NCBI GenBank assembly: GCA_001247695.2
Contig: LGRX02025811.1
Span: 42,016-106,015 of the forward strand
Origin: Cymbomonas tetramitiformis
Taxonomy: Eukaryota; Chlorophyta; Pyramimonadophyceae; Pyramimonadales; Pyramimonadaceae
Direction: 5' to 3'
Length of the DNA: 64,000 nucleotides
The translations under genes and the position numbers were made by a program. Below, piece after piece: positions 1 through 49,509 of the stretch (the first letter of the stretch is position 1; the number at the start of each line of letters is the position of its first letter). Below the pieces are notes generated by a model. That model made no database searches. It saw only the letters and a program-made list of their open reading frames with translations, and had not been told where the DNA came from.

Positions 1-1
1 A

Positions 2-1240: not shown

Positions 1241-1249
1241 AATCCGTTG

Positions 1250-4970: not shown

Positions 4971-4995
4971 ATGGCTGCCGTGGACAACAGTCTTC

Positions 4996-5519
4996 TTAGG
5001 GCAGTAGTAGGGTCGATTGCATACCGTATATGCGCTCATCCGCATCCGCACTTTGATAAAGTTGGACACCAACACGCATAGACATACGACGATGCCAGCT
5101 TTTTGGATAGATACGAACATAGCGTGTCAGAATGGGACTTTCAAAGTAGGCATACGCCCGCTCGTCACTGGGTGCATGTACCGAATTTCCTGGAAATATG
5201 GCCATGTTGTCCACCCACTTCCAGCCTCCATCGAAATGCGCATAAACGCAGAATGTCGTCACTCTTTGCTGGCTGGAGCCGCGCCGCGGTTGAATGACAA
5301 CTCCACTCACAACCCGCTCTATGTCCAAATCCATCTGGTGCCAACGGCCCCAATCGCTGCGAGATGAAAGCCAGGCCTCCGGCGAGTCCAGGCGACCGGT
5401 ATTATACCTATATCCTTGTCGATCACGGTAAGCTGCTTCTGTTGCATGCCGCCGGTCATAGGGGGGGTTGAATTCGACGCTGCTGGCGGACTGCTGCGGA
5501 TAGGTGATTCCGAGGCTCC
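4996..5519 (-). CDS. Gene 1 exon F: complete discoidin domain and C-terminus
   Basis: Terminal exon of 174 codons plus stop. It contains a whole F5/8 type C domain: SASSVEFNPPYDRRHATEAA, then GRLDSPEAWL, GRWHQMDLDIERVVSGVVIQ, a G..W..... strand, then LTRYVRIYPKSWHRRMSMRV. A short polar tail ends at a stop. The same frame is open upstream to 5601, but the acceptor CATCCTCCAG keeps phase 1. An alternative reading is a separate small gene, because a signal-peptide-like sequence (MPAALTCVCMCVSMVCVAVG) starts near 5591 in another frame and would need a short intron to join. Confidence 0.7.
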
Positions 5520-8500
5520 CTGGAGGATGTGTCCCACGGCAACGCAAACCATGGATACACACATGCACACACACGTCAGTGCTGCTGGCATTTTGTGGCA
5601 TTCTGCTGGTATGCTTGCTTGGATACTGGTCAAATACTTAGCCGAGCGATCACCGTGTATACTCCCTCACCACTCTTGCTTGCTTTGGACATTTAGGGAC
5701 ATCCCGCACAATCATGATTCAAGGTTGTACCGTACAGGACCCTACGTTCGCTATCCACAGTAGTCGCAGATACGCAGCTAGCAAGATGGTGTGCAGTTGA
5801 TGGGTAGAGTACGTGCTCACCTCCGCCATGTGTGAGCAGCCCCGCGCGCAAGGCGATTCGCAAGGTCCACATTTCCGGGCAGATGCGAATGTATCTTGCA
5901 ATCACCGCAACGTCAAACTCGCTCACCTTGAAGGTGCTCGCGTCAACATTTCCTAGAAAAACACGCCCGTCATCCACCTGCGTCCAGTTGGCTCCATCGT
6001 TGCTCGCCTGCACAGTGTATCCTGTCACATGGCCGCCATACTTCCCGGGCACGGCATGGCCTTGTGTGACCACGCCATGAATGGAGCGTACAGAGCCAGC
6101 GTCCATCTCGTGCCATGATGGCTGCGGGCGTGTAGTCCTCCACTTCGCAATGTCATCACCAGCATCTGGCGTGCAGCATCACACACAAATTGTCGACAAC
6201 AAGGATGGGAATTTTGATGAATCAATTGAACACTGGTATCAAAGTACAATCGATTGTGACTCCAAATAAGCAGGATTGTCATCTTGCCAACTTACAATCG
6301 AAACAGATTTCAACTTCGACTACTAACTGAATGTAATCGAATCGATTTGTGTAGTGAGGGAAACACAATCAAACAGGTTACATACGATAGCTAATGTACA
6401 CCAACCAAATCGGTTTTGGGAATGCTATTTTCAAAATGACACAAACACGGCAAATCGATTTGGACACCCAACACAATCTTGATATAGCTCGTGACGATGT
6501 TGCTTCATAAATCGTTAACAACAAGCAAACAACCCCATCCATCAGCAATAACATGATCAACGCCACACTGCTGTTCAATAATGCCCCCAAACACGCATAC
6601 ATGTTGTACTTCCTTACTCATCACAACATGCCTACGTCAAGTAATGCAATATAAAGTGTGAATATTGATGCAGCCTCATCATACCCATCTGTCACTGCAC
6701 GCGTACAAGGGTCTGCAAAATCCCATTTGCAACCAGCGGTCCCAACGCGAACACATTTGACCATCACTCAAAGAAGGATCCGAGTACTGTAGAGAAAGGC
6801 AAGGTCATCGGTCATCAGATTCCCCGCTCTTCAAAATGCAAACTAAACTAACGCATCAGCATACTACATTTATGCATCATCATCATCATATACATATATA
6901 TATATATATGTATGTATGTACGTACGCACCTGCCGACTTATCAGAAGCGTAGAAGTTGATGGCGCCAAGTGAAAACCATACGCCATTATCGTGATTGTTG
7001 TACATCATCAGCCTCCAGCAAGCAGCGTGGTACTCCGGGAATTCAAAGACCTGACTGGCCACAGTGCGAGCACCTGTGCCAGAGTACACGGCTACCCATG
7101 GTCCCGACAGGGTCTCTGCAGCTTGAAACGCGAAGCTCCGGAATTGATAGCCAGTGGGCCATGAGGGGTTGCCTCTAGTAGCAATTGCCGACAAAGTGAC
7201 GTTGGTCCGAAAATCAAATGCAACCCACTGATTGTGTCGACCGCGCCCCGAATGCCAGGCACTTCCCACGTCTCTGTCATTCAGCACATTTTCAGGTGGA
7301 TACGAATTGCTGTAAACGCCGCTTCGATAACTCGGGTCATTGGCCGTCCACGAGAGATTATTCTCCAGCCAGCCTTCGGCCACTGTAGCAGCCTCGTCGT
7401 CAGGAGAGAAGAAACAGATCCGTTGCACGCCAGCAGTGACGCTGCTGCTGATGCTCTCATCATGCTGATGACCACCGTGAAGTGCGGAGATGGTGATATT
7501 GACATAGCTTGTTCGAACTGCAGACAGAGAATATGTTGCTGTGGAGCAGTCATTTGGCACATTGTTCACGTGCTGTGTGCTCCCATCGCTGAATGCAATC
7601 ACCAGCGCCTGGCTCCTGCTGCTGGCGCCAACGCCACACATGTTGACAAACTGCATGCTGCCAATGGTGATGTTACGTCTAAACTGGACCTGTATCCAAG
7701 CGCCGATTCCTTCATTGTGAGTGCGCCATTCACTTGGGCTGCTGCTGTCAAAGGCATTGGTGCAGGTGTGGCTGCTGGAAGACTGGCTTGAAGCGGAGCA
7801 TTGAATCTCATCGAACCCTAATACTCCACACTCGAGGGGGTAGGATTCTGAGTCATCTGCCATCCAGCCAAGGGGTGACGACAGTCGACCTTGATTATTC
7901 CCGGTGCCTGCCGCGTCGTTATTCCATACAGATGAGGACTTGCGCGCTGAGTCCAGGGGATTGATTTCGCCCATGGGAGAGCCACTGATTGTCACCTCTT
8001 CATCCAGCTCGATCATCGACCCCTCTAGATCGATGTAGCTATTCAGCAAAACGTGGCTTTGAGCACCAAAACGCACCACTCCGTTTGATTGGCTCCTCAA
8101 ACAGGTGCTCACACCGTAGCCTCCCAGTGTTATATTACGATTGCCGGTGAAATATACATCTGAGCTGCTTGTGATGTCCACCATGCCACCCACGTCAACC
8201 ACACCCTGCGTGCCAATCACCATGCTACTACTATCGTTGATGCCTATGCGTACAGTGGAACTGTCGGATGCACTCAGCGCAAGCTCTTCATTCTGAGAAT
8301 TCACATTACGTCGATGACCAAAGCTGCGCACGGTGCTCATTAGTCGATCGCAGTGGATGCATACCACATCGCATTCTAAGTGCACTGTCGAGCCACCAGA
8401 CGCAATCAGATCTTCACCCAAAGTCGTCTCGCTTCCACTTTCCACACTCAGCCCAGAGCCTCCAGCCGCGCTCAGTCTGCCGCCAATCACCATACTGCCA

Positions 8501-11500
8501 CCAGAAAGTGCAGTCAGTGTCGAGCTGCTGGACACACTCATTGCAGCTCCCACAGTGGTGTTCCCGCCGCTGTGTACAGTCAGCGCTGAGCTGCTGGAAA
8601 CACTCATTGCAGCTCCCACAGTGGTGTTCCCGCCGCTGTGTACAGTCAGCGCTGAGCTGCTGGAAACACTCATTGCAGCTCCCACAGTGGTGTTCCCGCC
8701 GCTGTGTACAGTCAGCGCTGAGCTGCCGGAAACACTCATTGCAGCTCCCACAGTGGTGTTCCCGCCGCTGCTCACATTGATAGTTGAGCGGCCAGAAATG
8801 TGCAGATATTTGGTCACGTTGCTGCTGCTGGCACTCTGAATGGTTACCGCAGAGCTTCCTGAAATTGTGAGCCCCTGTCCCACTTCGCTGCTGCTACTCT
8901 CATTATTCCCAAGGCTTGCAATATTCACCGTGGATGTGCCCGAAACACTCATCGCGCTCCCCACCCGCACACGACCATTATGGCCATATATGTCCACAAC
9001 AGAGGTGCCTGTGGCGGTCAGACCATGGCCAACCTCCACAGATGAGCTGCTGTTGAGCTGTGCAGTGCATAGCGTTCGGGCAGCTACGCCATGACCAACT
9101 CGCACTTCGTCCCCCACCATGATGAGGCGGTCTCTGTCGTGCAAGTTCACTGCATGTGTCACATGGATCAACCCGAGACCAACGATGGTCAAGCTGCATC
9201 GGTCGTTCAGGTACACGTTGCCACCAATATCTGCAGAGGAAGAGCTGTGGATGTCAACTGTGGATCCTGAATTCCGGACTTCGAGCCCACCCGTGCTCAC
9301 TGATCGGCCTCTGACGTACACTGTACTGCCGGTGCTGACATAGGTAGATGGCTCAAGCATGACATCGACAGCGCTGCTGCCCAGCCTGAATTGGGTGGTA
9401 CTGACCCAATCGCTATCGAAGTGTACGCGCCAGTTCCTGTCTCTGCGCACCTGAGGCGCTTCCCACACAAAAGAGTTCATGCTGAACTGAATACGGCGAT
9501 ATCCATGACCTCCGGCGCCATAGTAGTCACAGGTATTGAAGTCTAGTGGAGCATCGACGAGGGAGGTGCCCCCGCCCTGCATGTGTATCCAGTGCTCGTT
9601 GTAGTGGCCTGTCTTGCCCTGGATGCAGAGCGTGAGCTTGCCCGTGTTCGCAAGGGCGCTGCGGAAGTACATGCGCCCCGTGTTGGTGTGGTGCCCTGTG
9701 AAGTAATGCTCCAGTATCATCTCCCCGGTGTTCTCCACGCTGTACTGTGGCGCTGAGCTCCCGGATTCAAACGACCCAAAATACATGTCCCCATTTATCG
9801 TGCCCGTGAGTCTCCTGCGCCTGCCGCTGACCTCGGGCGCGCCAGTGCTGTCCACCTTGGCTGTCCCGACGAAATCTGGCAGCTCTTGGCCGTCACTGTC
9901 ATATCCGAATGTCATGTTGTCATCTGGGTCACTGATGCTGGCATCGTCCTCCAGGTCGATGTCATAGTCCATCTCAAGCGCCACATCTTGCATTGCATGG
10001 TAATATCGGAAGTAATCCAGCTGGCTATAATACAGGTACTCCCTCGCCACGTCAACGGCTGTGCCATTGCTCGCGTACAAGTCCGTCAACTCTGGAGTTG
10101 GCTCCGTGTGGTCGGTGCTCTCCCAGCGTCCGTCCTCCACATTCCAAACATAGATGTACCCGTCGGTCAGATTCAGACAAATCCATACACCATCTTGGTT
10201 TTCTGCTTTCTGCATGTGTCCCAGCTTGTCATTGTAGTAATAAAACCCGTACTCTTGGGCTATGCGTGTATCATTTCCATTATCACTAATAATGCTATCA
10301 CTGTCCATATCAGAGCTGTCTTGAAACTGGTCCTGTTCTTGATAGAGTTCACCCTCAGAATTGCCAAAATACTCCACCATACGCACCATGTCCGGTTCTT
10401 CGTAATAAGGGTCGAAAACAGAGGAACGTGCTACAAGGTTGTCATCTTTATCCGAGTCTGCTAAACTATCAGCACTCGCGGCAGTCAAAGTATCACCAAC
10501 AGCAGAAGATGGCTCATCGGTCAAGTATGGCTCCGTATGGTCCTTGTCTATGGCACCGTTTTCAAACGTTGATTGGCCTGTAGTATCCACCGGCTCAGTC
10601 GAGTCCTTCTCAGCCGTATGCAGCTGCCTCCTCGTGTGACGACTATTTTTGTTTCCGCGCCTACTACTGCTCTCAAGCAGGCCACCGAAACGTTGGCTGT
10701 GTGTCATCAGTGGAGGGCTAATGCTGCGCACGTCGTCCATTACATGAAGTCCATAAAACGTATCCACATCGAGACCATAGAAAGCATCGCTTGATGGGCC
10801 GATGGTGTCCGCGGTAAAGTCACGTTGCCTCCAATCATCCGTTGGAATCCTCCCAGAATTTCTTTCGATCCACCCTGTGAATGCGGCATCGTGTGTGTCG
10901 ATGCGCCCGTTCCGCAGGCTGAAGTTCCCGTGATTCACCAAGTTGCCGAAGAAGTCCTTCATGCCAACATCCATGCTGCCTGTATTCACCACCTGCACTG
11001 CACTGTCCAGCGCCCACGAGTCCACAATGCCTGCGCACTGGAGGATCCCTGAGTTGTCAACCCCGATGGCACCACTCAACTTGAGGCAGGAGCTTGCAAA
11101 CACAATCTCTGCTCCCGGGGCATTCACAAGCATAGCAGAGGTGTTTTGCATGCTGCGAGAGCCTGCCAGTGCAAGTTGCCCATCCACGTCGATACGGCCA
11201 CGGTTCTGTATCATGAGGCTGCCTACGTTATATGCTCCGCTCTCGACACTCAATCGATTGTGTGTGGTCCATGCCCCATCTCCTTGCACTTCTCCATTCA
11301 CCCATAGTGTGTCAAACGAGCTTAGAGTTCCACTCAGCTTCAGTGAGCTTCCGCCTTTTATCACCGCCAAGCCACTGATCTTGACCGTCGCGTTTGCCGG
11401 AATGACGATATGCGGGCTGCTTTGTGGTCCTCCAAGAAATAGCACATTTGTCTCAGTGTGCCCGGAAGGAAAGCGTATGCAACCTGCACACATCAAATGG

Positions 11501-14500
11501 TGCGTGCAAAACACCAACCAAGCTCAGCCCACCATTACCGCATCAGGAACAGGCCACGGCCGTGGCAAACTGCATGGAAGCAGCAACAAGCCAAAAGCGA
11601 GTGGGCACCGAGCGAGCTGCTCCCCGCATCCACATTAACACGCACGTACACGGTAATAAAAATAAAGGCACACACTGAACGGCATGAGGTTCGCCGACAA
11701 AAGCCAGCCCACCATCGTTCCAGTGGATCGGATGTGAGAAACGAAGCATTCAGGTACAGTACTTTACAGCTGCACTCAATGACAGATGGAATCATCCCCG
11801 ATCGACCCGGGGGACTTTTCGTGCCTCACTCGCACGTGCCGCGCGCAGAATTTATAATAGGAAGCATCATTCAGGCAAGGGGGAGCGAGCCATGGGGGAG
11901 GAACTGGTGGGAAAGGAAGAGGTGAATGCGAGAGGAACAAGGGGCAAACAACGGAGAGCTACAACACACAAAAGATACATGGATACTGACGTGTGTCATT
12001 GTGTGACTATCACACGGACTATGCAAACCAATGGACGGACGATGGAAAATGCACGAAAGCATTATTAACCAGAAGCGGGCACCGAGGCGCTCCCCGCAGA
12101 GATCAAGGGAGGACACCGAGCAAGGCGGTCACCCCATCCTGCCTCTCCTTGCAAAGAAAGCAGACTACTCTGCCTCATTCCTCAAGAGGCAGTGTTCGCC
12201 AGAAAGGTACCACAGTGACAGCCACATCACATCACCCATATCCATCCAGTGGCCGTCCCCGTTCACGGCGGGGTGCCAGTCCCTCATCATAATTATCTTG
12301 GCTAACGATCATCAGTCCCCCATCCAGCAGGTGAAATAGCCATGCATCAGGTACATACCAGATAGACAGAAGGGAGAGCAAGTTTCAGACCAATCTGGTA
12401 TGTTCCCGAAGAGGCAGTGCCCGCCAGGAAGGCACCACAGCGACAGCCACATCCCATCGCCCACATCCATCCAGTGGCCGTCCCCGCCACTCACAATGAG
12501 GTGCCAAAGCCTCAAATCCAGGCTAACGAACACGAGTCCCCCGCCAAGTGTGCCAACCAAGAGGCACTGGACAAGAGAGGCCAATCTGTAAAGTCTTTCA
12601 AGAGGCATGACCGCCGGGACAGTGGCATCCCCCCAAAACAACTTCCAGCCCACGGCCGTTCCCGAAAAATCGAGCTACCAAAATAATCCCATAGCCAGGC
12701 CTCTAACACAAGCAAGTCCCCTTGCAAGTATAAATCCTAGAGGTGTCGCGGCAGCCGAAGAACAACCATCAGACAAATCTCGAATGCCCCCCCCACAAGT
12801 ACCCGCCAGCTGGGCACGTCAGGGCCAACCGCATTCCGTCAACCAAAACCACCCGGCGGCCATCCCCGTTCACACCATGACACGAGAACCGTCAAGCCTA
12901 TTATTTTTCATAAACTTGCCCCTGAAGTCGAGCATTCCAAGATGATTCCGTGATGCTCCTCAAGAGGCAGTGCCCAGGTGAGCAGGTGAGAGAGGCGCCA
13001 CAGGGATAAAATAAGACCCGCATCCCACCGCCCACAGCCACCTCCAGGCGATCATCTCTGTTCACAATCAAACTGGAAAAGGCAAAATGCTGGGTCATCC
13101 ACGACATATAGATGCACACATGCGGTACACAGAGTGATTGTGCAACAGGTGCGGCCTAGCGCGAGCAGATACCTATATATAGACTACTCTGAGATATCAT
13201 ATTGTCGTGACAAACCTGCACAAACCAGGACACCTGCGCGTAAACCAATTTGTCCATGAAAGCTTGTGGGGTATATGCGGATATACCGCGCTGTGACGAG
13301 CGCACTGAACAAGCTGGTCTTCTGTGTGTTGCGGTCCGAATTTCCCTGAAACATTGCTGCATCATCCACATCTATCCAGCTCGAGCCATTATAGCTCGCA
13401 GATACTCTGAATGCAGTAACCCACGCGTCCGAGTCTGCTTGGCCTTGAGTCACAATTCCAACGATAGACGTGACAAATCCCACATCCAGCTGATGCCATT
13501 CGTATATAGCTGCAGACGATTACGGCGCCCATTCAGATTCCCTCGTGCATGTTCTATGTTCTCCCTATTTTTGCCACGAGTGTGTATCATTATGCGCGCA
13601 AGCAAGGCGATAGCATGTACGTATAAAAGGCATAAGTGTATGTATACAACACATGCGATTGTGTAATATAATCCCTTTCGACACTCTGCCGTGACTGCGA
13701 CCTGCCGATGCATGGTTGGCGTGATGAGCACCCACACGACAACATCGAGGCCAGACGGTACCAACTCATCAGACTGTGCATATCAACCATCAAACGTTGT
13801 CCGCACATGCGCTTGCATGCATTTGACGCACCGAAGGTGCCGACGATTGCGATAGTATGCATATTTGAGATTAAAGCAATGTTCGCACATGCATGCGCTC
13901 GCAGCTGACGCAACGCACGTCGATCCCCTGCTGATTGCAATACCCACTTTATCATTTGGCCTCAGGCATGTTTTTGCAACGAACCCTTCCCTATTTATTC
14001 TTGTGCCTGGATTAGATATCTAGCCCCACTCATCTGACATAGCTTTGCGTCTGTGTGTGGACTGAGCGAGAAATCTGTTTCGATGCTCTCCTGTATATAT
14101 GTGAGCAGGATATCAATCAATAATACTAAGTCTTGGTGCAGCCAAGCCCCACTGAACACGTCAATAAGTACGTATTCATCCATCATCATCATACAATATA
14201 ACTATAACAATACTCATCATGCGTCAAATATGGATTGCATGACGCGCCCGCGCCTTCTTACCTGCCTGGTCTGCTGCGACTGTTGCAAAAGCAATACCCG
14301 TTAAGCTTAGCCAAGACCAATGATCCCCGCCAGCTTGCCATGCTACCGTGCCATTGACTTGAACGTCCACCCGTGCAGTGTACGCATTACAGTGCAGATT
14401 GAAGATTAGTCGATTTGATGGTCGACACTCCAGTGGCAGCTGCGCAAGATGACCCCACACACCCGGACGTACCAAGCCTTCCACGGTGCAGAATTTGTTA

Positions 14501-16493
14501 TCCTCAAGCGTGTACGTTGCTGTGCCATACTCCCCACCATAGTTTTCCCAGTTGTTGAGCAGAGGCAATGGCACCGTGTGCCAAGAAGCTCCAGTAGTAC
14601 GAAAAAAAATTCCAGATACACTTATCCACCCATGACTTCGCCCGCCTGCAACCCATCTCACGATTCCATCTGTCTGAACATCGACCCGTGACGTCTGCGC
14701 ATGATTGTTCACATTAAAGATCAATCGTTTATCTGGTCGGCATTGCACCGGAAGCTGAGCAAGCTCACCCCAACCCCCAGACCTGAGCAAGCCCTCAACC
14801 GAGCAATAACCATTCACAACTGTGTAAGTGGGTGTGCCAAATTCCCCACCATAAGATCGCCATGAATGCCTCAGAGGAAGTGAGCTTCCGCTTTCAGTTG
14901 AAAACCTGATTCCTGACAAGCTGACCCACGAACCATCTCGCCCACCAGCAACCCAATGAATGCGGCCATCTGTAAGAACGTCAATGCGTACGGTATTGGC
15001 ATCATTGTTCATGTTGAATATCAGGCGTTTTGTTGGCCGGCAAGCTGAAGGTAGCCGTGCGATTGTTCCCCAACTCCCACCAGACCTTACTCGGCCGTAC
15101 ACCACGCAAATGCTGTCGAAAATGTAATACATCGGTATACCATATTCACCGTCCAATGAATGCCAGTTATCAACCAGCACGACCGGTGCATTTGAGACTC
15201 CTGCGTGACCCATCACTCATCCTGATCACAAGTCTGATGGCATGCTACTAAGCAACTTGCATATGAACTTTCAAGCCATATACAAGTAACGTATATGCAT
15301 AAGCAAAATGTAAGGACGTGAACATACTTCCGATACGTATTCTGAAAGTCTGAAACCACAAAAATTCTGTTGCACTCCAATTTGAACATATAATGTGTAA
15401 TAGATATGATCAATTATATGCATATCGAGATAGATAGAGAGAGAGAGATATCCTCTCTGTAACGCAATGATGTAAGCAAGCCCCGGCCACGGTTTGACTG
15501 GGTTCCCAACTTGTGCTCTAGAGAGCAGCAAGGAAATGCGTACAACCATCCCCCAATACAATTCAACGCACTACAATGCAATGCAATGCAATGCATGCTT
15601 TCCCTGATCTTTTCCCGCCCCTACAGATCAAGCATGCTTTAGGCGGCCCAATTAAATCTTTAACGGCCAGGTCAGCGATGTTCACCTTTAGCAAGCCAAC
15701 CAGTAGGCGAGTCTAGGCTGCCCCGGTTATATCCTGTGCCTGCACCATGGTTAGCATATACAGAAGATGCGTTCCTTGCTGAGTCATCTGGGTTCAGCAT
15801 GCGACGACCTAGCATCCCTGCATCCTCCACGTACACCACAGCATCTGGGCTGGGGGGTCGAGGAGGCAGCCAATTCAGGGGATCGCTCCAATCACCAATA
15901 ATGCCCCCGCCAGATACATCACTGTTCCACAATCTTGGTTTAAACGCCGAATCGCTCACATTCCCTATGAAGATGACATTGGAATCCACTGTGCCACCAG
16001 CGGACGTATACTCGGCCGTGATGTATGTGGTTGGAGTGTAGCCTCGCGACTTTTGCACATGGCCTTCATTAATAAATTGGGTGCCAAGAGAACTAGCATT
16101 GCTATTTGCGATTCCCCAAAAAATGAAGGCATCCGTTTGTATGTCAAACACCGAGTTTGCTGAGTTGACAATGATGGTCTTGTTTTCTGCAAATATGAGC
16201 CCGAATCCAGTCCACGTGGTATTGCCACGCAACATCATTGTGACGCCGGCCAAATAAACACGATCAGAGTTTGCAATCTCCCAGGTATCCAGACTGATCA
16301 CTGCGTCTTGACTTCCACTTATTTTCCCGGATTCCCAACGCAAAATTTGCACCGAGGAGGAGAGGTCCAAGATTGCTCGTGATTCCAAGTGCAAGTGTGC
16401 CGCAAGCCGGTGATATGCCATTTCATCTGCACAGACCCACTTCCCACTGCCCCCGATGACAACGTACGTGGTGCTGTACAGCGTAATCCACAT
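4996..16493 (-). CDS. Modular secreted adhesin-like protein, gene 1 (six exons, F5/8 type C domains)
   Basis: Predicted exons in coding order: 16493-15686, 15200-14262, 13509-13216, 11483-6930, 6165-5821, 5519-4996, giving about 2,487 residues from the first in-frame ATG. The splice sites are inferred by eye. Each donor (GTGAAC, GTAAGA, GTTTGT, GTGCGT, GTGAGC) and each CAG acceptor is phase 1, and joining them keeps one frame to the stop. Order of modules: signal-like N-terminus, beta-helix-like region, half discoidin, three lectin-like repeats, second half of the discoidin, a 4.55-kb exon with serine/glycine repeats and two discoidin-like domains, then two more discoidin modules. No membrane anchor is visible at the C-terminus, so secretion or a surface/extracellular-matrix role with carbohydrate or protein binding is inferred. 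The start is uncertain: the open frame runs upstream to 16532 with only TTG, and CAG at 16519-16517 could be an acceptor for an unseen small first exon. The exons could also be alternatively spliced. Confidence 0.7.
5821..6165 (-). CDS. Gene 1 exon E: discoidin C-terminal half
   Basis: 115 codons, phase 1 at both ends, acceptor CACGCCAG and donor GTGAGC. The landmarks SWHEMDAGSVRSIHGVVTQG, ASNDGANWTQVDDGRVFLGN and ARYIRICPEMWTLRIALRAG are those of the latter two-thirds of an F5/8 type C domain. The expected N-terminal strand is missing locally and matches the unpaired GRLSSPLGWMADD segment inside exon D. Confidence 0.75.
6871..6926. repeat. CAT / TA / TATG compound microsatellite in intron D-E (gene 1)
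   Basis: Compound microsatellite directly next to the splice donor of exon D. Genes 2 (18586-18652) and 3 (about 30270-30340) carry longer CAT and TATG runs than gene 1, a length polymorphism among the tandem copies. Confidence 0.8.
6930..11483 (-). CDS. Gene 1 exon D: 1,518-codon exon with beta-helix repeats, acidic linker and discoidin-like domains
   Basis: Phase 1 at both ends. In coding order: a beta-helix-like stretch (11480-10850) with short G.L...G-type repeats; a charged, Asp/Glu-rich linker (about 10800-9900); a tetra-arginine site in SGRRRRLTG (about 9803-9832), which looks like a proprotein-convertase motif; a long Ser/Gly/Val repeat region (about 9330-8000) including four copies of a 22-residue repeat; the N-terminal half of a discoidin domain (about 7945-7855); two discoidin-like domains (about 7845-7475 and 7345-6945), the first with clustered cysteines. 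The unfinished half-domain appears to be completed by exon E. Many N-x-S/T sites fit a secreted glycoprotein. Similarity to bacterial adhesin repeats is compositional and does not prove homology. Confidence 0.75.
8536..8775 (-). repeat. Four tandem 66-bp coding repeats in exon D, gene 1
   Basis: Each unit encodes 22 residues around GGNTTVGAAMSVSSSSALTV. The units are nearly identical to one another, unlike the rest of the Ser/Gly-rich region, so they expanded recently or are kept uniform. The same block occurs in genes 2 and 3. Confidence 0.85.
12181..13080. repeat. Degenerate repeats (about 190-290 bp) in intron C-D of gene 1
   Basis: About four to five diverged copies share AAGAGGCAGTG...CCGCCAG, a GCCACATC-like word and CCAGTGGCCGTCCCC. 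Cores lie near 12184, 12409, 12600 and 12961, with a weaker one near 12850. They occupy most of the 1.73-kb intron and recur in gene 2 (about 23908-24811). I see no coding. Confidence 0.6.
13216..13509 (-). CDS. Gene 1 exon C: second half of a discoidin (F5/8 type C) domain
   Basis: 98 codons, phase 1 at both ends. It reads YEWHQLDVGF, GIVTQGQ, FRVSASYNGSSWIDVDD, MFQGN, then TARYIRIYPTSFHGQIGLRA. These are the standard C-terminal landmarks of F5/8 type C domains (WHQ.D, G..TQG, S.DG..W....., F.GN, ..ARYIRI.P..W....LR.E). The N-terminal landmarks are missing here but are present at the end of exon A. Such domains bind glycans, phospholipids or proteins at the cell surface. Confidence 0.75.
14262..15200 (-). 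CDS. Gene 1 exon B: three tandem lectin-like repeats
   Basis: 313 codons, phase 1 at both ends, with a strong donor (CAG then GTAAGA). It holds three repeats of about 95 residues. Each has W..YGGEYGTP.Y, then C..EGL.R.G.WG.LAQLP, CRP..RLIFN.N..A.T.RVDV, DG...W.AGG and W.SLSGI.F. The LP..CRP and DG.I...GG..W.SLSGI words resemble beta-sandwich domains found at the C-termini of phage tail and microbial surface proteins, which suggests carbohydrate or surface binding. I do not recognise a named family. The exon interrupts a discoidin domain whose halves lie in exons A and C, so it is either a nested insertion or an alternatively spliced cassette. Gene 3 lacks it. Confidence 0.65.
15425..15600. 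repeat. GA and TGCAA short tandem repeats in intron A-B
   Basis: An (AG)n run near 15430-15450 and an (AATGC)n run near 15576-15597 lie between exons A and B. The second unit has one more AATGC copy and a shorter AG run. Confidence 0.7.
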
Positions 16494-16516
16494 CACAATT
16501 GCAAAGAAAGGCCTAC
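15686..16516 (-). CDS. Gene 1 exon A: signal-like N-terminus, beta-helix-like stretch, first half of a discoidin domain
   Basis: About 277 codons. A hydrophobic segment (FFAIVMWITLYSTTYVVIGG) precedes a possible cleavage site near VCA. It is followed by short beta-rich repeats of the kind seen in parallel beta-helices and by the motif GDWSDPLNWLPPRPPSPDAV. The W..P.NW.PP..P...D.V pattern is frequent in secreted adhesin-like proteins and recurs at the N-terminus of gene 3. The exon ends in LDSARNASSVYANHGAGTG followed by GWLAK, which is the N-terminal half of an F5/8 type C domain, and is cut by a phase-1 donor. The rest of that domain is found two exons downstream. Confidence 0.65.
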
Positions 16517-16617
16517 CTGTTCCTCGTTGCAAATTAGTCCTGTTAACATTGACATCGGTTGTTCAAAAGAAACGTCGCATCTTCTTCCATAGCATGTGTA
16601 CGCTTCCCTCGGAATAA

Positions 16618-16632
16618 TGGGGTATAATGCGC
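16618..16632 (-). promoter_or_regulatory. Possible TATA-like site between gene 2 stop and gene 1 start
   Basis: On the - strand the spacer reads GCATTATACCCC about 130 bp upstream of the ATG at 16493. The whole gap between the stop of gene 2 (16705) and the open frame of gene 1 (16532) is only 172 bp, so any gene 1 promoter must be compact or overlap the 3' end of gene 2. The same arrangement recurs near 28301-28315. Confidence 0.2.
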
Positions 16633-16704
16633 CGTCCTAGTGATAAAAAGGAGATAAGCATCAAGCAAGCAGAGCATACATGGCTGCCGTGGGCAACAGT
16701 CTTC

Positions 16705-18615: not shown

Positions 18616-18647
<32 letters not shown>

Positions 18648-24600: not shown

Positions 24601-27600
24601 ACCATGACACGAGAACCGTCAAGCCTATTATTTTTCATAAACTTGCCCCTGAAGTCGAGCATTCCAAGATGATTCCGTGATGCTCCTCAAGAGGCAGTGC
24701 CCAGGTGAGCAGGTGAGAGAGGCGCCACAGGGATAAAATAAGACCCGCATCCCACCGCCCACAGCCACCTCCAGGCGATCATCTCTGTTCACAATCAAAC
24801 TGGAAAAGGCAAAATGCTGGGTCATCCACGACATATAGATGCACACATGCGGTACACAGAGTGATTGTGCAACAGGTGCGGCCTATCTAGCGCGAGCAGA
24901 TACCTATATATAGACTACTCTGAGATATCATATTGTCGTGACAAACCTGCACAAACCAGGACACCTGCGCGTAAACCAATTTGTCCATGAAAGCTTGTGG
25001 GGTATATGCGGATATACCGCGCTGTGACGAGCGCACTGAACAAGCTGGTCTTCTGTGTGTTGCGGTCCGAATTTCCCTGAAACATTGCTGCATCATCCAC
25101 ATCTATCCAGCTCGAGCCATTATAGCTCGCAGATACTCTGAATGCAGTAACCCACGCGTCCGAGTCTGCTTGGCCTTGAGTCACAATTCCAACGATAGAC
25201 GTGACAAATCCCACATCCAGCTGATGCCATTCGTATATAGCTGCAGACGATTACGGCGCCCATTCAGATTCCCTCGTGCATGTTCTATGTTCTCCCTATT
25301 TTTTCCACGAGTGTGTATCATTATGCGCGCAAGCAAGGCGATAACACGTACGTATAAAAGGCATAAGTGTATGTATACAACACATGCGATTGTGTAATAT
25401 AATCCCTTTCGACACTCTGCCGTGACTGCGACCTGCCGATGCATGGTTGGCGTGATGAGCACCCACACGACAACATCGAGGCCAGACGGTACCAACTCAT
25501 CAGACTGTGCATATCAACCATCAAACGTTGTCCACACATGCGCTTGCATGCATTTGACGCACCGAAGGTGCCGACGATTGCGATAGTATGCATATTTCAG
25601 ATTAAAGCAATGTTCGCGCATGCATGCGCTCGCAGCTGACGCAACGCACGTCGATCCCCTGCTGATTGCAATACCCACTTTATCATTTGGCCTCAGGCAT
25701 GTTTTTGCAACGAACCCTTCCCTATTTATTCTTGTGCCTTGATTAGATATCTAGCCCCACTCATCTGACATAGCTTTGCGTCTGTGTGTGGACTGAGCGA
25801 GAAATCTGTTTCGATGCTCTCCTGTATATATGTGAGCAGGATATCAATCAATAATACTAAGTCTCGGTGCAGCCAAGCCCCACTGAATACGTCAATAAGT
25901 ACGTATTCATCCATCATCATCATACAATATAACTATAACAATACTCATCATGCGTCAAATATGGATTGCATGACGCGCCTGCGCCTTCTTACCTGCCTGG
26001 TCTGCTGCGACTGTTGCAAAAGCAATACCCGTTAAGCTTAGCCAAGACCAATGATCCCCGCCAGCTTGCCATGCTACCGTGCCATTGACCTGAACGTCGA
26101 CCCGTGCAGTGTACGCATTACAGTGCAGATTGAAGATTAGGCGATTTGATGGTCGACACTCCAGTGGCAGCTGCGCAAGATGACCCCACACACCCGGACG
26201 TACCAAGCCTTCCACGGTGCAGAATTTGTTATCCTCAAGCGTGTAGGTTGCTGTGCCATACTCCCCACCATAGTTTTCCCAGTTGTTGAGCAGAGGCAAT
26301 GGCACCATGTGCCAAGAAGCTCCAGTAGTACGAAAAAAAATTCCAGATACACTTATCCACCCATGACTTCGCCCGCCTGCAACCCATCTCACGATTCCAT
26401 CTGTCTGAACATCGACCCGTGACGTCTGCGCATGATTGTTCACATTAAAAATCAATCGTTTATCTGGTCGGCATTGCACCGGAAGCTGAGCAAGCTCACC
26501 CCAACCCCCAGACCTGAGCAAGCCCTCAACCGAGCAATAACCATTCACAACTGTGTAAGTGGGTGTGCCAAATTCCCCACCATAAGATCGCCATGAATGC
26601 CTCAGAGGAAGTGAGCTTCCGCTTTCAGTTGAAAACCTGATTCCTGACAAGCTGACCCACGAACCATCTCGCCCACCAGCAACCCAATGAATGCGGCCAT
26701 CTGTAAGAACGTCAATGCGTACGGTATTGGCATCGTTGTTCATGTTGAATATCAGGCGTTTTGTTGGCCGGCAAGCTGAAGGTAGCCGTGCGATTGTTCC
26801 CCAACTCCCACCAGACCTTACTCGGCCGTACACCACGCAAATGCTGTCGAAAATGTAATACATCGGTATACCATATTCACCGTCCAATGAATGCCAGTTA
26901 TCAACCAGCACGACCGGTGCATTTGAGACTCCTGCGTGACCCATCACTCATCCTGATCACAAGTCTGATGGCATGCTACTAAGCAACTTGCATATGAACT
27001 TTCAAGCCATATACAAGTAACCTATATGCATAAGCAAAATGTAAGGACGTGAACATACTTCCGATAATATATTATCATGTGTAATAGATATGATCAATTA
27101 TATGCATATCGAGATAGAGAGAGAGAGATCCTCTCTGTAACGCAATGATGTAAGCAAGCCCCGGCCACGGTTTGACTGGGTTCCCAACTTGTGCTCTAGA
27201 GAGCAGCAAGGAAATGCGTACAACCATCCCCCAATACAATTCAATGCACTACAATGCAATGCAATGCAATGCAATGCATGCTTTCCCTGATCTTTTCCCG
27301 CCCCTACAGATCAAGCATGCTTTAGGCGGCCCAATTAAATCTTTAACGGCCAGGTCAGCGATGTTCACCTTTAGCAAGCCAACCAGTAGGCGAGTCTAGG
27401 CTGCCCCGGTTATATCCTGTGCCTGCACCATGGTTAGCATATACAGAAGATGCGTTCCTTGCTGAGTCATCTGGGTTCAGCATGCGACGACCTAGCATCC
27501 CTGCATCCTCCACGTACACCACAGCATCTGGGCTGGGGGGTCGAGGAGGCAGCCAATTCAGGGGATCGCTCCAATCACCAATAATGCCCCCGCCAGATAC

Positions 27601-28176
27601 ATCACTGTTCCACAATCTTGGTTTAAACGCCGAATCGCTCACATTCCCTATGAAGATGACATTGGAATCCACTGTGCCACCAGCGGACGTATACTCGGCC
27701 GTGATGTATGTGGTTGGAGTGTAGCCTCGCGACTTTTGCACATGGCCTTCATTAATAAATTGGGTGCCAAGAGAACTAGCATTGCTATTTGCGATTCCCC
27801 AAAAAATGAAGGCATCCGTTTGTATGTCAAACACCGAGTTTGCTGAGTTGACAATGATGGTCTTGTTTTCTGCAAATATGAGCCCGAATCCAGTCCACGT
27901 GGTATTGCCACGCAACATCATTGTGACGCCGGCCAAATAAACACGATCAGAGTTTGCAATCTCCCAGGTATCCAGACTGATCACTGCGTCTTGACTTCCA
28001 CTTATTTTCCCGGATTCCCAACGCAAAATTTGCACCGAGGAGGAGAGGTCCAAGATTGCTCGTGATTCCAAGTGCAAGTGTGCCGCAAGCCGGTGATATG
28101 CCATTTCATCTGCACAGACCCACTTCCCACTGCCCCCGATGACAACGTACGTGGTGCTGTACAGCGTAATCCACAT
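16705..28176 (-). CDS. Modular secreted adhesin-like protein, gene 2 (six exons)
   Basis: Near-identical tandem copy of gene 1. Predicted exons in coding order: 28176-27369 (A), 26931-25993 (B, lectin-like), 25240-24947 (C), 23210-18657 (D), 17874-17530 (E), 17228-16705 (F). All splice motifs and phases are conserved, giving about 2,487 residues. Differences from gene 1 are few. In the last part of exon D gene 2 has D-to-N, G-to-S, V-to-A and H-to-R changes that gene 3 also carries, whereas its A-B-C exons match gene 1; an A replaces V in the SSAVD segment. Gene 2 therefore resembles gene 1 at its 5' side and gene 3 at part of its 3' side. Start uncertainty as for gene 1. Confidence 0.7.
18657..23210 (-). 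CDS. Gene 2 exon D (large repeat exon)
   Basis: Same module order as exon D of gene 1: beta-helix-like start, acidic linker, tetra-arginine site, Ser/Gly repeat region with four 22-residue repeats, unpaired discoidin half, then two discoidin-like domains. The donor is followed by a longer TATG microsatellite than in unit 1. Confidence 0.75.
20263..20502 (-). repeat. Four tandem 66-bp coding repeats in exon D, gene 2
   Basis: Same number of units as in gene 1, with one third-position change (GCAGCT to GCGGCT). Confidence 0.85.
25993..26931 (-). CDS. Gene 2 exon B (three lectin-like repeats)
   Basis: Copy of the gene 1 lectin-like exon. I see one amino-acid change within the repeats (a T-to-M at the start of the third repeat). 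The open frame and both phase-1 boundaries are intact, which argues that the exon is under coding constraint or was very recently copied. Confidence 0.65.
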
Positions 28177-28362
28177 CACAATTGCAAAGAAAGGCCTACC
28201 TGTTCCTCGTTGCAAATTAGTCCTGTTAACATTGACATCGGTTGTTCAAAAGAAACGTCGCATCTTCTTCCATAGCATGTGTACGCTTCCCTCGGAATAA
28301 TGGGGTATAATGCGCCGTCCTAGTGATAAAAAGGAGATAAGCATCAAGCAAGCAGAGCATAC

Positions 28363-30302
28363 ATGGCTGCCGTGGGCAACAGTCTTCTTAGGGCAGTAGT
28401 AGGGTCGATTGCATACCGTATATGCGCTCATCCGCATCCGCACTTTGATAAAGTTGGACACCAACACGCATAGACATACGACGATGCCAGCTTTTTGGAT
28501 AGATACGAACATAGCGTGTCAGAATGGGACTTTCAAAGTAGGCATACGCCCGCTCGTCACTGGGTGCATGTACCGAATTTCCTGGAAATATGGCCATGTT
28601 GTCCACCCACTTCCAGCCTCCATCGAAATGCGCATAAACGCAGAATGTCGTCACTCTTTGCTGGCTGGAGCCGCGCCGCGGTTGAATGACAACTCCACTC
28701 ACAACCCGCTCTATGTCCAAATCCATCTGGTGCCAACGGCCCCAATCGCTGCGAGATGAAAGCCAGGCCTCCGGCGAGTCCAGGCGACCGGTATTATACC
28801 TATATCCTTGTCGATCACGGTAAGCTGCTTCTGTTGCATGCCGCCGGTCATAGGGGGGGTTGAATTCGACGCTGCTGGCGGACTGCTGCGGATAGGTGAT
28901 TCCGAGGCTCCCTGGAGGATGTGTCCCACGGCAACGCAAACCATGGATACACGCATGCACACACACGTCAGTGCTGCTGGCATTTTGTGGCATTCTGCTG
29001 GTATGCTTGCTTGGATACTGGTCAAATACTTAGCCGAGCGATCACCGTGTATACTCCCTCACCACTCTTGCTTGCTTTGGACATTTAGGGACATCCCGCA
29101 CAATCATGATTCAAGGTTGTACCGTACAGGACCCTACGTTCGCTATCCACAGTAGTCGCAGATACGCAGCTAGCAAGATGGTGTGCAGTTGATGGGTAGA
29201 GTACGTGCTCACCTCCGCCATGTGTGAGCAGCCCCGCGCGCAAGGCGATTCGCAAGGTCCACATTTCCGGGCAGATGCGAATGTATCTTGCAATCACCGC
29301 AACGTCAAACTCGCTCACCTTGAAGGTGCTCGCGTCAACATTTCCTAGAAAAACACGCCCGTCATCCACCTGCGTCCAGTTGGCTCCATCGTTGCTCGCC
29401 TGCACAGTGTATCCTGTCACATGGCCGCCATACTTCCCGGGCACGGCATGGCCTTGTGTGACCACGCCATGAATGGAGCGTACAGAGCCAGCGTCCATCT
29501 CGTGCCATGATGGCTGCGGGCGTGTAGTCCTCCACTTCGCAATGTCATCACCAGCATCTGGCGTGCAGCATCACACACAAATTGTCAACAACAAGGATGG
29601 GAATTTTGATGAATCAATTGAACACTGGTATCAAAGTACAATCGATTGTGACTCCAAATAAGCAGGATTGTCATCTTGCCAACTTACAATCGAAACAGAT
29701 TTCAACTTCAACTACTAACTGAATGTAATCGAATCGATTTGTGTAGTGAGGGAAACACAATCAAACAGGTTACATACGATAGCTAATGTACACCAACCAA
29801 ATCGGTTTTGGGAATGCTATTTTCAAAATGACACAAACACGGCAAATCGATTTGGACACCCAACACAATCTTGATATAGCTCGTGACGATGTTGTTTCAT
29901 AAATCGTTAACAACAAGCAAGCAAACAACCCCATCCATCAGCAATAACATGATCAACGCCACACTGCTGTTCAATAATGCCCCCAAACACGCATACATGT
30001 TGTACTTCCTTACTCATCACAACATGCCTACATCAAGTAATGCAATATAAAGTGTGAATATTGATGCAGCCTCATCATACCCATCTGTCACTGCACGCGT
30101 GCAAGGGTCTGCAAAATCCCATTTGCAACCAGCGGTCCCAACGCGAACACATTTGACCATCACTCAAAGAAGGATCCGAGTACTGTAGAGAAAGGCAAGG
30201 TCATCGGTCATCAGATTCCCCGCTCTTCAAAATGCAAACTAAACTAACGCATCAGCATACTACATTTATGCATCATCATCATCATCATCATATACATATA
30301 TA

Positions 30303-30334
<32 letters not shown>

Positions 30335-33300
30335 CGTACGCACCTGCCGACTTATCAGAAGCGTAGAAGTTGATGGCGCCAAGTGAAAACCATACGCCAT
30401 TATCGTGATTGTTGTACATCATCAGCCTCCAGCAAGCAGCGCGGTACTCCGGGAATTCAAAGACCTGACTGGCCACAGTGCGAGCACCTGTGCCAGAGTA
30501 CACGGCTACCCATGGTCCCGACAGGGTCTCTGCAGCTTGAAACGCGAAGCTCCGGAATTGATAGCCAGTGGGCCATGAGGGGTTGCCTCTAGTAGCAATT
30601 GCCGACAAAGTGACGTTGGTCCGAAAATCAAATGCAACCCACTGATTGTGTCGACCGCGCCCCGAATGCCAGGCACTTCCCACGTCTCTGTCATTCAGCG
30701 CATTTTCAGGTGGATACGAATTGCTGTAAACGCTGCTTCGATAACTCGGGTCATTGGCCGTCCACGAGAGATTATTCTCCAGCCAGCCTTCGGCCACTGT
30801 AGCAGCCTCGTTGTCAGGAGAGAAGAAACAGATCCGTTGCACGCCAGCAGTGACGCTGCTGCTGATGCTCTCATCATGCTGATGACCACCGTGAAGTGCG
30901 GAGATGGTGATATTGACATAGCTTGTTCGAACTGCAGACAGAGAATATGTTGCTGTGGAGCAGTCATTTGGCACATTGTTCACGTGCTGTGTGCTCCCAT
31001 CGCTGAATGCAATCACCAGCGCCTGGCTCCTGCTGCTGGCGCCAACGCCACACATGTTGACAAACTGCATGCTGCCAATGGTGATGTTACGTCTAAACTG
31101 GACCTGTATCCAAGCGCCGATTCCTTCATTGTGAGTGCGCCATTCGCTTGGGCTGCTGCTGTCAAAGGCATTGGTGCAGGTGTGGCTGCTGGAAGACTGG
31201 CTTGAAGCGGAGCATTGAATCTCATCGAACCCTAATACTCCACACTCGAGGGGGTAGGATTCTGAGTCATCTGCCATCCAGCCAAGGGGTGACGACAGTC
31301 GACCTTGATTATTCCCGGTGCCTGCCGCGTCGTTATTCCATACAGATGAGGACTTGCGCGCTGAGTCCAGGGGATTGATTTCGCCCATGGGAGAGCCACT
31401 GATTGTCACCTCTTCATCCAGCTCGATCATCGACCCCTCTAGATCGATGTAGCTATTCAGCAAAACGTGGCTTTGAGCACCAAAACGCACCACTCCGTTT
31501 GATTGGCTCCTCAAACAGGTGCTCACACCGTAGCCTCCCAGTGTTATATTACGATTGCCGGTGAAATATACATCTGAGCTGCTTGTGATGTCCACCATGC
31601 CACCCACGTCAACCACACCCTGCGTGCCAATCACCATGCTACTACTATCGTTGATGCCTATGCGTACAGTGGAACTGTCGGATGCACTCAGCGCAAGCTC
31701 TTCATTCTGAGAATTCACATTACGTCGATGACCAAAGCTGCGCACGGTGCTCATTAGTCGATCGCAGTGGATGCATACCACATCGCATTCTAAGTGCACT
31801 GTCGAGCCACCAGACGCAATCAGATCTTCACCCAAAGTCGTCTCGCTTCCACTTTCCACACTCAGCCCAGAGCCTCCAGCCGCGCTCAGTCTGCCGCCAA
31901 TCACCATACTGCCACCAGAAAGTGCAGTCAGTGTCGAGCTGCTGGACACACTCATTGCAGCTCCCACAGTGGTGTTCCCGCCGCTGTGTACAGTCAGCGC
32001 TGAGCTGCTGGAAACACTCATTGCAGCTCCCACAGTGGTGTTCCCGCCGCTGTGTACAGTCAGCGCTGAGCTGCTGGAAACACTCATTGCAGCTCCCACA
32101 GTGGTGTTCCCGCCGCTGTGTACAGTCAGCGCTGAGCTGCCGGAAACACTCATTGCAGCTCCCACAGTGGTGTTCCCGCCGCTGCTCACATTGATAGTTG
32201 AGCGGCCAGAAATGTGCAGATATTTGGTCACGTTGCTGCTGCTGGCACTCTGAATGGTTACCGCAGAGCTTCCTGAAATTGTGAGCCCCTGTCCCACTTC
32301 GCTGCTGCTACTCTCATTATTCCCAAGGCTTGCAATATTCACCGTGGATGTGCCCGAAACACTCATCGCGCTCCCCACCCGCACACGACCATTATGGCCA
32401 TATATGTCCACAACAGAGGTGCCTGTGGCGGTCAGACCATGGCCAACCTCCACAGATGAGCTGCTGTTGAGCTGTGCAGTGCATAGCGTTCGGGCAGCTA
32501 CGCCATGACCAACTCGCACTTCGTCCCCCACCATGATGAGGCGGTCTCTGTCGTGCAAGTTCACTGCATGTGTCACATGGATCAACCCGAGACCAACGAT
32601 GGTCAAGCTGCATCGGTCGTTCAGGTACACGTTGCCACCAATATCTGCAGAGGAAGAGCTGTGGATGTCAACTGTGGATCCTGAATTCCGGACTTCGAGC
32701 CCACCCGTGCTCACTGATCGGCCTCTGACGTACACTGTACTGCCGGTGCTTACATAGGTAGATGGCTCAAGCATGACATCGACAGCGCTGCTGCCCAGCC
32801 TGAATTGGGTGGTACTGACCCAATCGCTATCGAAGTGTACGCGCCAGTTCCTGTCTCTGCGCACCTGAGGCGCTTCCCACACAAAAGAGTTCATGCTGAA
32901 CTGAATACGGCGATATCCATGACCTCCGGCGCCATAGTAGTCACAGGTATTGAAGTCTAGTGGAGCATCGACGAGGGAGGTGCCCCCGCCCTGCATGTGT
33001 ATCCAGTGCTCGTTGTAGTGGCCTGTCTTGCCCTGGATGCAGAGCGTGAGCTTGCCCGTGTTCGCAAGGGCGCTGCGGAAGTACATGCGCCCCGTGTTGG
33101 TGTGGTGCCCTGTGAAGTAATGCTCCAGTATCATCTCCCCGGTGTTCTCCACGCTGTACTGTGGCGCTGAGCTCCCGGATTCAAACGACCCAAAATACAT
33201 GTCCCCATTTATCGTGCCCGTGAGTCTCCTGCGCCTGCCGCTGACCTCGGGCGCGCCAGTGCTGTCCACCTTGGCTGTCCCGACGACATCTGGCAGCTCT

Positions 33301-34795
33301 TGGCCGTCACTGTCATATCCGAATGTCATGTTGTCATCTGGGTCACTGATGCTGGCATCGTCCTCCAGGTCGATGCCAAAGTCCATCTCAAGCGCCACAT
33401 CTTGCATTGCATGGTAATATCGGAAGTAATCCAGCTGGCTATAATACAGGTACTCCCTCGCCACGTCAACGGCCGTGCCATTGCTCACGTACAAGTCCAT
33501 CAGCTCTGGAGTTGGCTCCGTGTGGTCGGTGCTCTCCCAGCGTCCGTCCTCCACATTCCAAACATAGATGTACCCGTCGGTCAGGTTCAGACAAATCCGA
33601 ACACCATCTTGGTTATCCGCTCTCTGCATGTGTCCCAACTTGTCATTGTAGTAGTAAAACCCGTACTCCTGGGCTATGCGTGTATGATTTCCATTATCAT
33701 GAATGCTTTGACTGTATCCTCGGGCAGTGATGTTTGATCTATCCTCTTCATGCCGAATGTTGTGAGTACTGCCCATGTCATCTTGAGGATCATCATAGTC
33801 CACCATGTGCATTATGTCCGGCTCCTCAAAAGGATCGAACACTGATGCCGACATGCTGTGGTTTGCGTTTTGGGAAGAACTGCCTAAGGGAGGGTCTTCA
33901 TCTGTGAGCCATGCGTCTGCGTAGTCATCTTTTGATCCATCAATGAGAACATTACGCCGGCGTTGATCTTGCTCTCGATCGCCCAATTTGCGAGCGACAC
34001 CTGCAGCCATAAATCTATGGTACTCCACACTCCCTGCATCAGCCAGTATCCCAGTTCTGTGGAAAGTCTTTGTGGAAGACAAGTGTTCAACGAAGCGGTC
34101 TGGCACTGGAAATTCTTCTCGAGACCTTGTTCTCATGACTTGTTCTTCAGTGGGTCCATCGAGCGATCCGTGGGACTGCTTCTGTGCAGCGCTGTTGGTG
34201 GTACCCTCAAGGTTCTCTAAGGATATTACTGAGCTATACAGCAAAGTTCTAGCAAGATGAATGGAATACCCAATGTCTTCTCTTTCTTGGTCTTGGCTCG
34301 TTAGGCCATAGAAAGAGTTGCCCAAGCCATAAAAATCATAATTCTCTGGTGGTGCATTACTATCTCTGCCACTCATATCGGTGGTCTGGTATGCTCCTTG
34401 TACGGCTGACATTCTGTGAAGGTTCTGGCTAGTCCACCCTGTGAATGCGGGATCGTGTGTGTCGATGCGCCCGTTCCGCAGGCTGAAGTTCCCGTGATTC
34501 ACCAAGTTGCCGAAGAAGTCCTTCATGCCAACATCCATGCTGCCTGTATTCACCACCTGCACTGCACTGTCCAGAACCCACGAGTCTACAATGCCTGCGC
34601 ACTGGAGGATCCCTGAGTTGTCAACCCCGATGGCACCACTCAACTTGAGGCAGGAGCTTGCAAACACAATCTCTGCTCCCGGGGCATTCACAAGCATAGC
34701 AGAGGTGTTTTGCATGCTGCGGGAGCCTGCCAGTGCAAGTTGCCCATCCACGTCGATACGGCCATGGTTCTGTATCATGAGGCTGCCCACACCGT
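28363..34795 (-). repeat. Tandem gene-array unit 3, partial
   Basis: This unit repeats the two terminal discoidin exons, their introns and most of the large exon. Near-identity runs from 28363 to about 33690. It is interrupted by a diverged island (about 33700-34430), resumes for about 360 bp (34430-34790), and ends inside coding sequence. Beyond that point gene 3 has its own paralogous 5' end. The signal, lectin-like and first discoidin exons of units 1 and 2 are absent here. Confidence 0.85.
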
Positions 34796-35234
34796 AGGTA
34801 CCACTGTCCACAACCAGGCTATCTTGGTTTCTCCATAAGCCACTTCCATTTATCATTGCACCTCTTCTCCAAATGGTTTCCGCAGTGTGTAGCTCACCAT
34901 AAACACTTACACTACCAGCAACAAGATAGCTTAATCGGCTAATAACGAGCTTGCCACTTTGATTTACTTGAAGAAAGCCATTTGTATCCGGTGAGCCGAC
35001 TTGTAGGCTTGCAACAACAACTTCTGTAGAAATGTGTGCCAGTCCTCCATGAAGAATATAAACGTCATTTTCCTCTGTAGGAACGTATGGCGGGTTCCAA
35101 TTAGATGGAGTTTCCCATGAACCTCCATTGAAACCATTCCAAAACACAACACCCTCGCGCTGCCCAAATGTTTGACAGGCAGCATATTGCAGCAGCGTCA
35201 AACTGATAAAAGAAAGAGTGGCGCACAAGCCCAT
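28388..35234 (-). CDS. Modular secreted adhesin-like protein, gene 3 (three exons)
   Basis: Predicted exons: 35234-30344, 29557-29213, 28911-28388, about 1,919 residues. It starts at a clear ATG with a good signal peptide (MGLCATLSFISLTLLQYAAC) followed by FWNGFNGGSWETPSNWNPPY, the same W..P.NW.PP motif seen in exon A of gene 1. The first exon fuses this N-terminus directly to the region that is exon D in genes 1 and 2, so the lectin-like exon and first discoidin are missing. Downstream it shares the acidic linker, tetra-arginine site, Ser/Gly repeats, two discoidin-like domains and the two terminal discoidin exons. It is near-identical to genes 1 and 2 from about 33690 to the stop and again at 34430-34790, but diverged between those blocks and at the 5' end. 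It may represent the older gene form. Confidence 0.75.
31950..32189 (-). repeat. Four tandem 66-bp coding repeats in gene 3
   Basis: Same four-unit block as in genes 1 and 2. The unit number is constant across all three genes. Confidence 0.85.
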
Positions 35235-49470: not shown

Positions 49471-49509
49471 GAAATCGAAGATTCCCCCTCTTTCTAACAA
49501 ATGTGGTCA

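Follow-up and report, generated by a model that had tools for sequence, protein, structure and literature searches.

Does a row of near-identical modular units in a green alga encode several neighbouring proteins, or one protein built from all of them? The question is raised by a stretch of 64,000 nucleotides from Cymbomonas tetramitiformis (contig LGRX02025811.1, positions 42,016 to 106,015 of the forward strand), which we refer to as the window. It carries three copies of a large set of exons, all on the minus strand and in the reading order C, B, A, which a first-pass annotation of the sequence had taken as three genes. Our analysis suggests, on balance, that these copies form one transcription unit, a giant gene for a putatively secreted, multivalent surface-binding adhesin, and one gene is in our judgement roughly twice as probable as three.

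The evidence for a single gene lies at the boundaries between the copies. Each full unit is headed by an exon, E1, that comes directly after the last exon, E6, of the preceding copy, and the distance from stop codon to next proposed start is 211 bp in each case. When the E6 donor ACG|GTATGC is spliced to an acceptor GTGCAG|ATG within the E1 open reading frame (ORF), the product and the C. tetramitiformis protein CYMTET_8050 give a single alignment of 306 columns with 40% identity. In that protein the match to E6 ends at residue 2014 and the match to E1 starts at residue 2018, which places the two parts next to each other. The spliced read-through frame from C through B to A is open over 15 exons, 20,496 nt and 6,831 residues, and the splice puts the start codons proposed for A and B inside an intron. 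With short gaps, a homologue continuous over the boundary and an open spliced frame, the earlier division into three genes is probably wrong. The exons and inferred introns are, in reading order:

30344..35234, minus strand: C E4', first exon, with hydrophobic N terminus, acidic linker, beta-solenoid, DUF7402 and F5/8 type C (F5/8 C) domain (open frame, Pfam, solenoid model)
34433-34787, minus strand: 355-bp tract of C, 98.3% identical to A/B inside diverged sequence (self-BLAST)
29213..29557, minus strand: C E5, C-terminal part of an F5/8 C domain (spliced model; near-identical to the Pfam-tested A E5)
28388..28911, minus strand: C E6, F5/8 C, ending with TAA at 28388 (spliced model) or, in the read-through model, at the donor ACG|GTATGC with last exon base 28417
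28110..28416, minus strand: inferred intron from C to B, 307 bp, phase 1 (read-through model; E6/E1 adjacency in the homologue)
27369..28109, minus strand: B E1, a module followed by the N-terminal half of an F5/8 C domain; start at 28176 in the three-gene model (spliced and read-through models; tests on A E1)
25993..26931, minus strand: B E2, symmetrical 1-1 exon with three phage receptor-binding-protein-like head domains (near-identical to the tested A E2)
24947..25240, minus strand: B E3, C-terminal remainder of the F5/8 C domain whose first half is in E1 (spliced model; A E3 tested)
18657..23210, minus strand: B E4, acidic linker, beta-solenoid, DUF7402 and F5/8 C (spliced model; A and C copies tested)
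17530..17874, minus strand: B E5, C-terminal part of F5/8 C (spliced model)
16705..17228, minus strand: B E6, F5/8 C, with TAA at 16705 or a donor with last exon base 16734 (spliced and read-through models)
16427..16733, minus strand: inferred intron from B to A, 307 bp, phase 1 (read-through model)
15686..16426, minus strand: A E1, with start at 16493 in the three-gene model (spliced and read-through models, homologue alignment)
14262..15200, minus strand: A E2, three phage receptor-binding-protein-like head domains
13216..13509, minus strand: A E3, C-terminal part of F5/8 C (Pfam, 70.9 bits)
6930..11483, minus strand: A E4 (Pfam, F5/8 C 53.7 bits and DUF7402 37.2 bits)
5821..6165, minus strand: A E5, C-terminal part of F5/8 C (Pfam, 69.3 bits)
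4996..5519, minus strand: A E6, F5/8 C and stop codon (Pfam, 60.3 bits)

The homologue CYMTET_8050 (2,672 aa; P0037 in our set) shares with the window protein the order of its parts, E3-, E4-, E5-, E6- and E1-like, as well as F5/8 C and DUF7402 domains and an F5/8 C N-terminal half ahead of a DUF7402 and F5/8 C pair; from E4 to E6 the two are about 40% identical. It differs in that no match to E2 and no near-identical tandem unit were seen inside it, and in that its E1 is followed by an EGF-like part (assigned by eye) and a proline-rich part not found as such in the window. It was one of two proteins at E<=0.001 in a search with the C frame, among 7,981 scored candidates sharing most words; the other was P0036 (EukProt), a nearly identical gene that tracks the C linker from its GTYGVG onward. 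The three protein searches that we made, with E2, with the C frame and with fused E6 and E1, had length limits, and further relatives may exist.

Several observations weigh against a single gene. The proposed donor ACG|GTATGC is atypical, as the other five donors all have AG before the GT, and inspection by eye shows that E6 has another same-phase GT a few codons further upstream and that another possible acceptor, TATCACTAG|GA, lies 3' of E6 and would soon run into a stop. In a BLAST of unit A alone the E1 match reaches back to residue 2, across the proposed intron, at 3 identities in 21. The search with fused E6 and E1 returned only two F5/8 C proteins covering about one third of the query, with length limits that could not return CYMTET_8050. 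The sequence of that protein is itself a prediction from annotation, with a stretch of ~140 residues at its start that seems foreign on inspection by eye. When CYMTET_8050 was compared with the window by tblastn, neither an E1 nor an EGF-like exon turned up beyond the end of A, in 1-4958, and the gene thus lacks the C-terminal end that the homologue would predict; proline-rich matches on the two strands at 1268-4219 were attributed to low complexity. The N terminus of C, where a single gene would start, has a mean hydropathy of 1.50, against 1.48 for an internal stretch of C.

The in-frame stop of E6, intact in all three copies, is a further difficulty, and it is the main attraction of the alternative, namely three separate neighbouring genes that each have their own promoter and each end at the E6 TAA. 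A start codon stands in frame with each E1, and the unproven splice from E6 to E1 becomes unnecessary. We regard this as the less probable arrangement, though one to be taken seriously. It requires the 211 bp to hold both a 3' end and a promoter, and it leaves the adjacency of E6 and E1 in the homologue to be accounted for. The first 22 residues of A have 3 identities in 21 with the homologue (+0.6 bits), and none of the four most hydrophobic windows of A falls at the start proposed for A and B. With the small hydropathy contrast in C, this makes the earlier claim of a signal peptide in every unit doubtful.

The copies themselves are very similar. A direct tandem repeat of ~11.7 kb spans 4958-28350 at 99.4% identity in a self-comparison of the window, and self-BLAST matches 4958-15335 to 16667-27066 at 99.4% and 15389-22012 to 27073-33699 at 99.3%, which bears out the recent tandem duplication of very large modular genes proposed at first pass. 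The spliced models of A, B and C encode 2,487, 2,487 and 1,919 aa, close to the sizes first given (2,490, 2,490 and 1,919), with GT-AG introns and no internal stops. C is partial: it matches A and B only over 28350-33699 and in the isolated 355-bp tract, and upstream of about 33699 its N-terminal part is strongly diverged. This mosaic of diverged and near-identical sequence is consistent with gene conversion, and the tract at 34433-34787 is probably a conversion tract. The GC content of the window is 50.5%, and the value given for Cymbomonas in the available part of PMC10675990 is 51.4%.

The differences between copies are not evenly spread. A and B differ at 16 of 7,464 exon sites and at 33 of 4,185 sites outside exons (introns and a short intergenic part; Fisher p=9e-6 for the contrast), and all six indels lie outside exons. 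The units are thus highly identical overall, as first described, but their introns are less alike than their exons. Coding changes between A and B comprise 10 synonymous and 6 non-synonymous, against 1,801 and 5,660 sites respectively (dN/dS 0.19, p=0.0012). Over the shared 3' coding part, C differs from A by 10 synonymous and 12 non-synonymous changes (dN/dS 0.38, p=0.024) and from B by 9 and 9 (dN/dS 0.32, p=0.016). The exon-intron contrast and the synonymous excess make random assembly or base-calling error an unlikely source of the differences, because scattered errors would not respect exons.

The same contrast is expected if the assembler placed two alleles of one locus one after the other. 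In that case unit B (or A) would be a false duplication and the real locus would consist of C and one unit, which we consider improbable. The divergence between units is low, at 0.2-0.8%, and lies within the range of allelic differences. A second array of near-identical tandem units lies nearby, and P0036 agrees with C in the linker and further on has residues of A/B, of which one is found in B only, a pattern that could come from collapse, from another haplotype or from recombination. Where P0036 departs from C, at 8 aligned residues, it has the residue common to A and B in four cases, that of B only in one and a residue of no copy in three; one stretch of C that it lacks was probably spliced out by the P0036 gene model. 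The E6/E1 adjacency kept in the homologue argues that at least C and one unit are natural.

What would such a gene encode? The module types named at first pass are largely upheld. Several F5/8 C domains were claimed, and four exon ORFs of unit A exceed the curated cut-off of Pfam F5_F8_type_C (PF00754; 28.2 bits), at 60.3, 69.3, 53.7 and 70.9 bits. C E4' scores 56.6 bits for this family and 37.1 bits for DUF7402. DUF7402 (PF24135) reaches 37.2 bits against a cut-off of 27, and NADase_discoid (NF047619) 40.2 bits against a cut-off of 38. By sequence, the C ORF has one match among solved structures, the discoidin domain of human CASPR2 (E 0.0063). The beta-helix-like and lectin-like repeats are backed by AlphaFold models, the former as a beta-solenoid in E4 and the latter as the repeats of E2. 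In C E4' the solenoid contains four 22-aa repeats, encoded by a 66-bp DNA repeat. Its likeness to the right-handed beta-helices of antigen 43, EtpA and the HK620 tailspike is one of fold class only, with large rmsd; the E4 model gave no Foldseek match at E<=0.001, and homology to such proteins is not shown. The module of B E1 has no Pfam match and is beta-helix-like by eye only, with tests made on A E1.

The exon limits suggest how the modules were put together. All 14 inferred introns are in phase 1 and the six unit exons are multiples of three; the five distinct introns that do not depend on the read-through inference are likewise all in phase 1, with a chance of 0.004 if phases are equally likely, although a general phase-1 excess in this genome is possible. 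E2 coincides with its module, while the F5/8 C domains are split between exons. The symmetrical 1-1 exon E2 interrupts an F5/8 C domain, which has its N-terminal half in E1 and its C-terminal part in E3. Joining E1 and E3 without E2 raises the F5/8 C score from 70.6 to 75.8 bits and extends the coverage of the 127-position profile from 35-125 to 4-125, so that the domain split by E2 is nearly completed. For the second split domain, in which the E4 N-terminal half and E5 enclose the DUF7402 and F5/8 C pair, the gain on joining is unclear (70.4 to 70.6 bits, coverage 21-125 to 20-125); the arrangement is alike in CYMTET_8050, where joining gives 73.2 to 74.6 bits. E2 might be a cassette exon that is sometimes skipped.

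A review, in the part available, treats class 1-1 exon shuffling as animal-restricted and asks the reason (PMC8001218). Symmetrical phase 1-1 exons and beta-rich modules of extracellular type are common to the animal proteins described there and the window gene, which differs in being algal, in having an inserted exon that splits an F5/8 C domain and in that its secretion is predicted from hydropathy only. The algal gene looks like the same process. A giant algal gene with all its inferred introns in phase 1 and a 1-1 exon inside another domain is a candidate counter-example to the view that such shuffling is confined to animals.

The lectin-like repeats of E2 are, as judged from a structure model of A E2 that has the head-domain fold, phage receptor-binding-protein head domains. 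By sequence E2 matches the phage tail families phrog_13022 (unknown function; 7.6e-17), phrog_3639 (minor tail protein; 4e-7) and phrog_7127 (receptor binding tail protein; 4.3e-5). Caudo_bapla_RBP (PF08931) scores 12.7 bits, under its cut-off of 26.7, and no solved structure matches by sequence under E 0.5. A tblastn against 50,697 phage records gave three, at 29-32% identity over 45-60% of the query, and no confirmed relative came from viral contigs when these were scanned by pattern, a method of limited reach, for the E2 alignment, P0017 and P0036. The head domains of Listeria phage PSA gp15 and of lactococcal phages p2 and TP901-1 are 11-19% identical to E2, whereas the window has three tandem heads per chain in a larger protein from an intron-containing eukaryotic gene. 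The predicted BFVD model of the Microbacterium phage Truong minor tail protein (A0A6M3SZL4) matches the whole trio (TMq 0.88, 2.5 A), although it is a 700-residue phage tail protein only 19% identical. The first-pass annotation did not recognise this combination of modules; the lectin-like repeats can now be placed with phage heads, and much of the architecture recurs in CYMTET_8050.

Six of the 35 E2 homologues (P0015, P0017, P0018, P0021, P0022 and P0024) have the three-head trio fused to Peptidase_S74. In a tree of E2 relatives, which used 30 of 32 rows (P0030 and P0031 dropped for coverage, P0032-P0035 left out), these six proteins form one clade with support 1.0, and the direction of transfer of the head domains cannot be told because the place of the window is weakly supported (0.684). 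The six may be fibres of protist viruses whose heads are of the kind seen in the algal protein. That the locus is an insert in decay or of viral origin (giant virus or Polinton-like virus), and not an expressed host gene, is very unlikely. The trios fused to Peptidase_S74 would fit it; fibres with this domain are reported, in the available part of PMC12220804, to be common in protist Polinton-like viruses. Against it, the gene has several exons, and these are better conserved than its introns; among 20 ORFs scanned with Pfam, a subset of the window ORFs, none exceeded the cut-off for a viral family; P0036 had no match among viral contigs in a pattern search, whose reach is limited; and the closest named protein, CYMTET_8050, is the alga's.

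If C, B and A are one gene, each E6 would be spliced into the next E1 through a 307-bp phase-1 intron to give a 6,831-residue protein with a single signal peptide, at the start of C. It would combine beta-solenoid stalks, F5/8 C (discoidin-type) domains and trios of phage receptor-binding-protein-type heads. As a symmetrical 1-1 cassette of 7,368 nt, the unit could be duplicated without a change of frame; unequal exchange in introns could add or remove a 2,456-residue unit, and gene conversion could keep the units alike. Many binding sites on long stalks would allow avid attachment at the cell surface or in an extracellular coat, and the targets, on the domains alone, could be bacteria as prey, partner cells or the coat itself.

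To our knowledge, prey recognition by bacterivorous prasinophytes is an open question. Cymbomonas is described as such an alga, and others are reported, in the available part of PMC8245530, to ingest live bacteria and not heat-killed bacteria or beads. Prey capture may be one natural role of the protein, with the extracellular coat and cell-cell contact as others. That a bacterivorous green alga grips prey with phage-type heads in a giant adhesin, with the number of grips set by in-frame gain and loss of 1-1 cassettes in one gene, and so by class 1-1 shuffling in a unicellular non-animal, is as a whole a speculative and rather unlikely proposal; phage-type heads in this putative surface protein would be a directly testable prey-receptor candidate. 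We found no description of such an architecture in a search that took in few subscription journals and included the available parts of PMC8001218, PMC12220804, PMC8245530 and PMC12906663.

The rest of the window contains mobile and repeated sequence. Near the end of copy A lie a 437-aa open frame (1036-2349, plus strand) and frames of 281 and 297 aa (3208-4053 and 2314-3207, minus strand), all without a Pfam match and possibly a retroelement. Direct repeats of 212 bp, 97.6% identical (50814-51025 and 53992-54203), flank two long frames without a Pfam match, which together resemble a non-autonomous LTR element. A Ty3-like retroelement is present in pieces at 59145-63358 on the minus strand, with chromodomain, RNase H and integrase zinc-binding domain, and satellite-like tandem repeats lie at 63379-64000 (units of 10-154 bp) and 49314-49723 (units of 33-68 bp). 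Between 38491 and 48959 a DNA transposon occurs three times head to tail, with a spacing of 3,487 bp and 99.7-99.8% identity between copies. It encodes DDE_1 and HTH_Tnp_Tc5 in a 595-aa frame together with an overlapping 241-aa frame, the inner junctions bear TACTGTAC, and the array also has internal repeats of 28 bp as well as inverted repeats.

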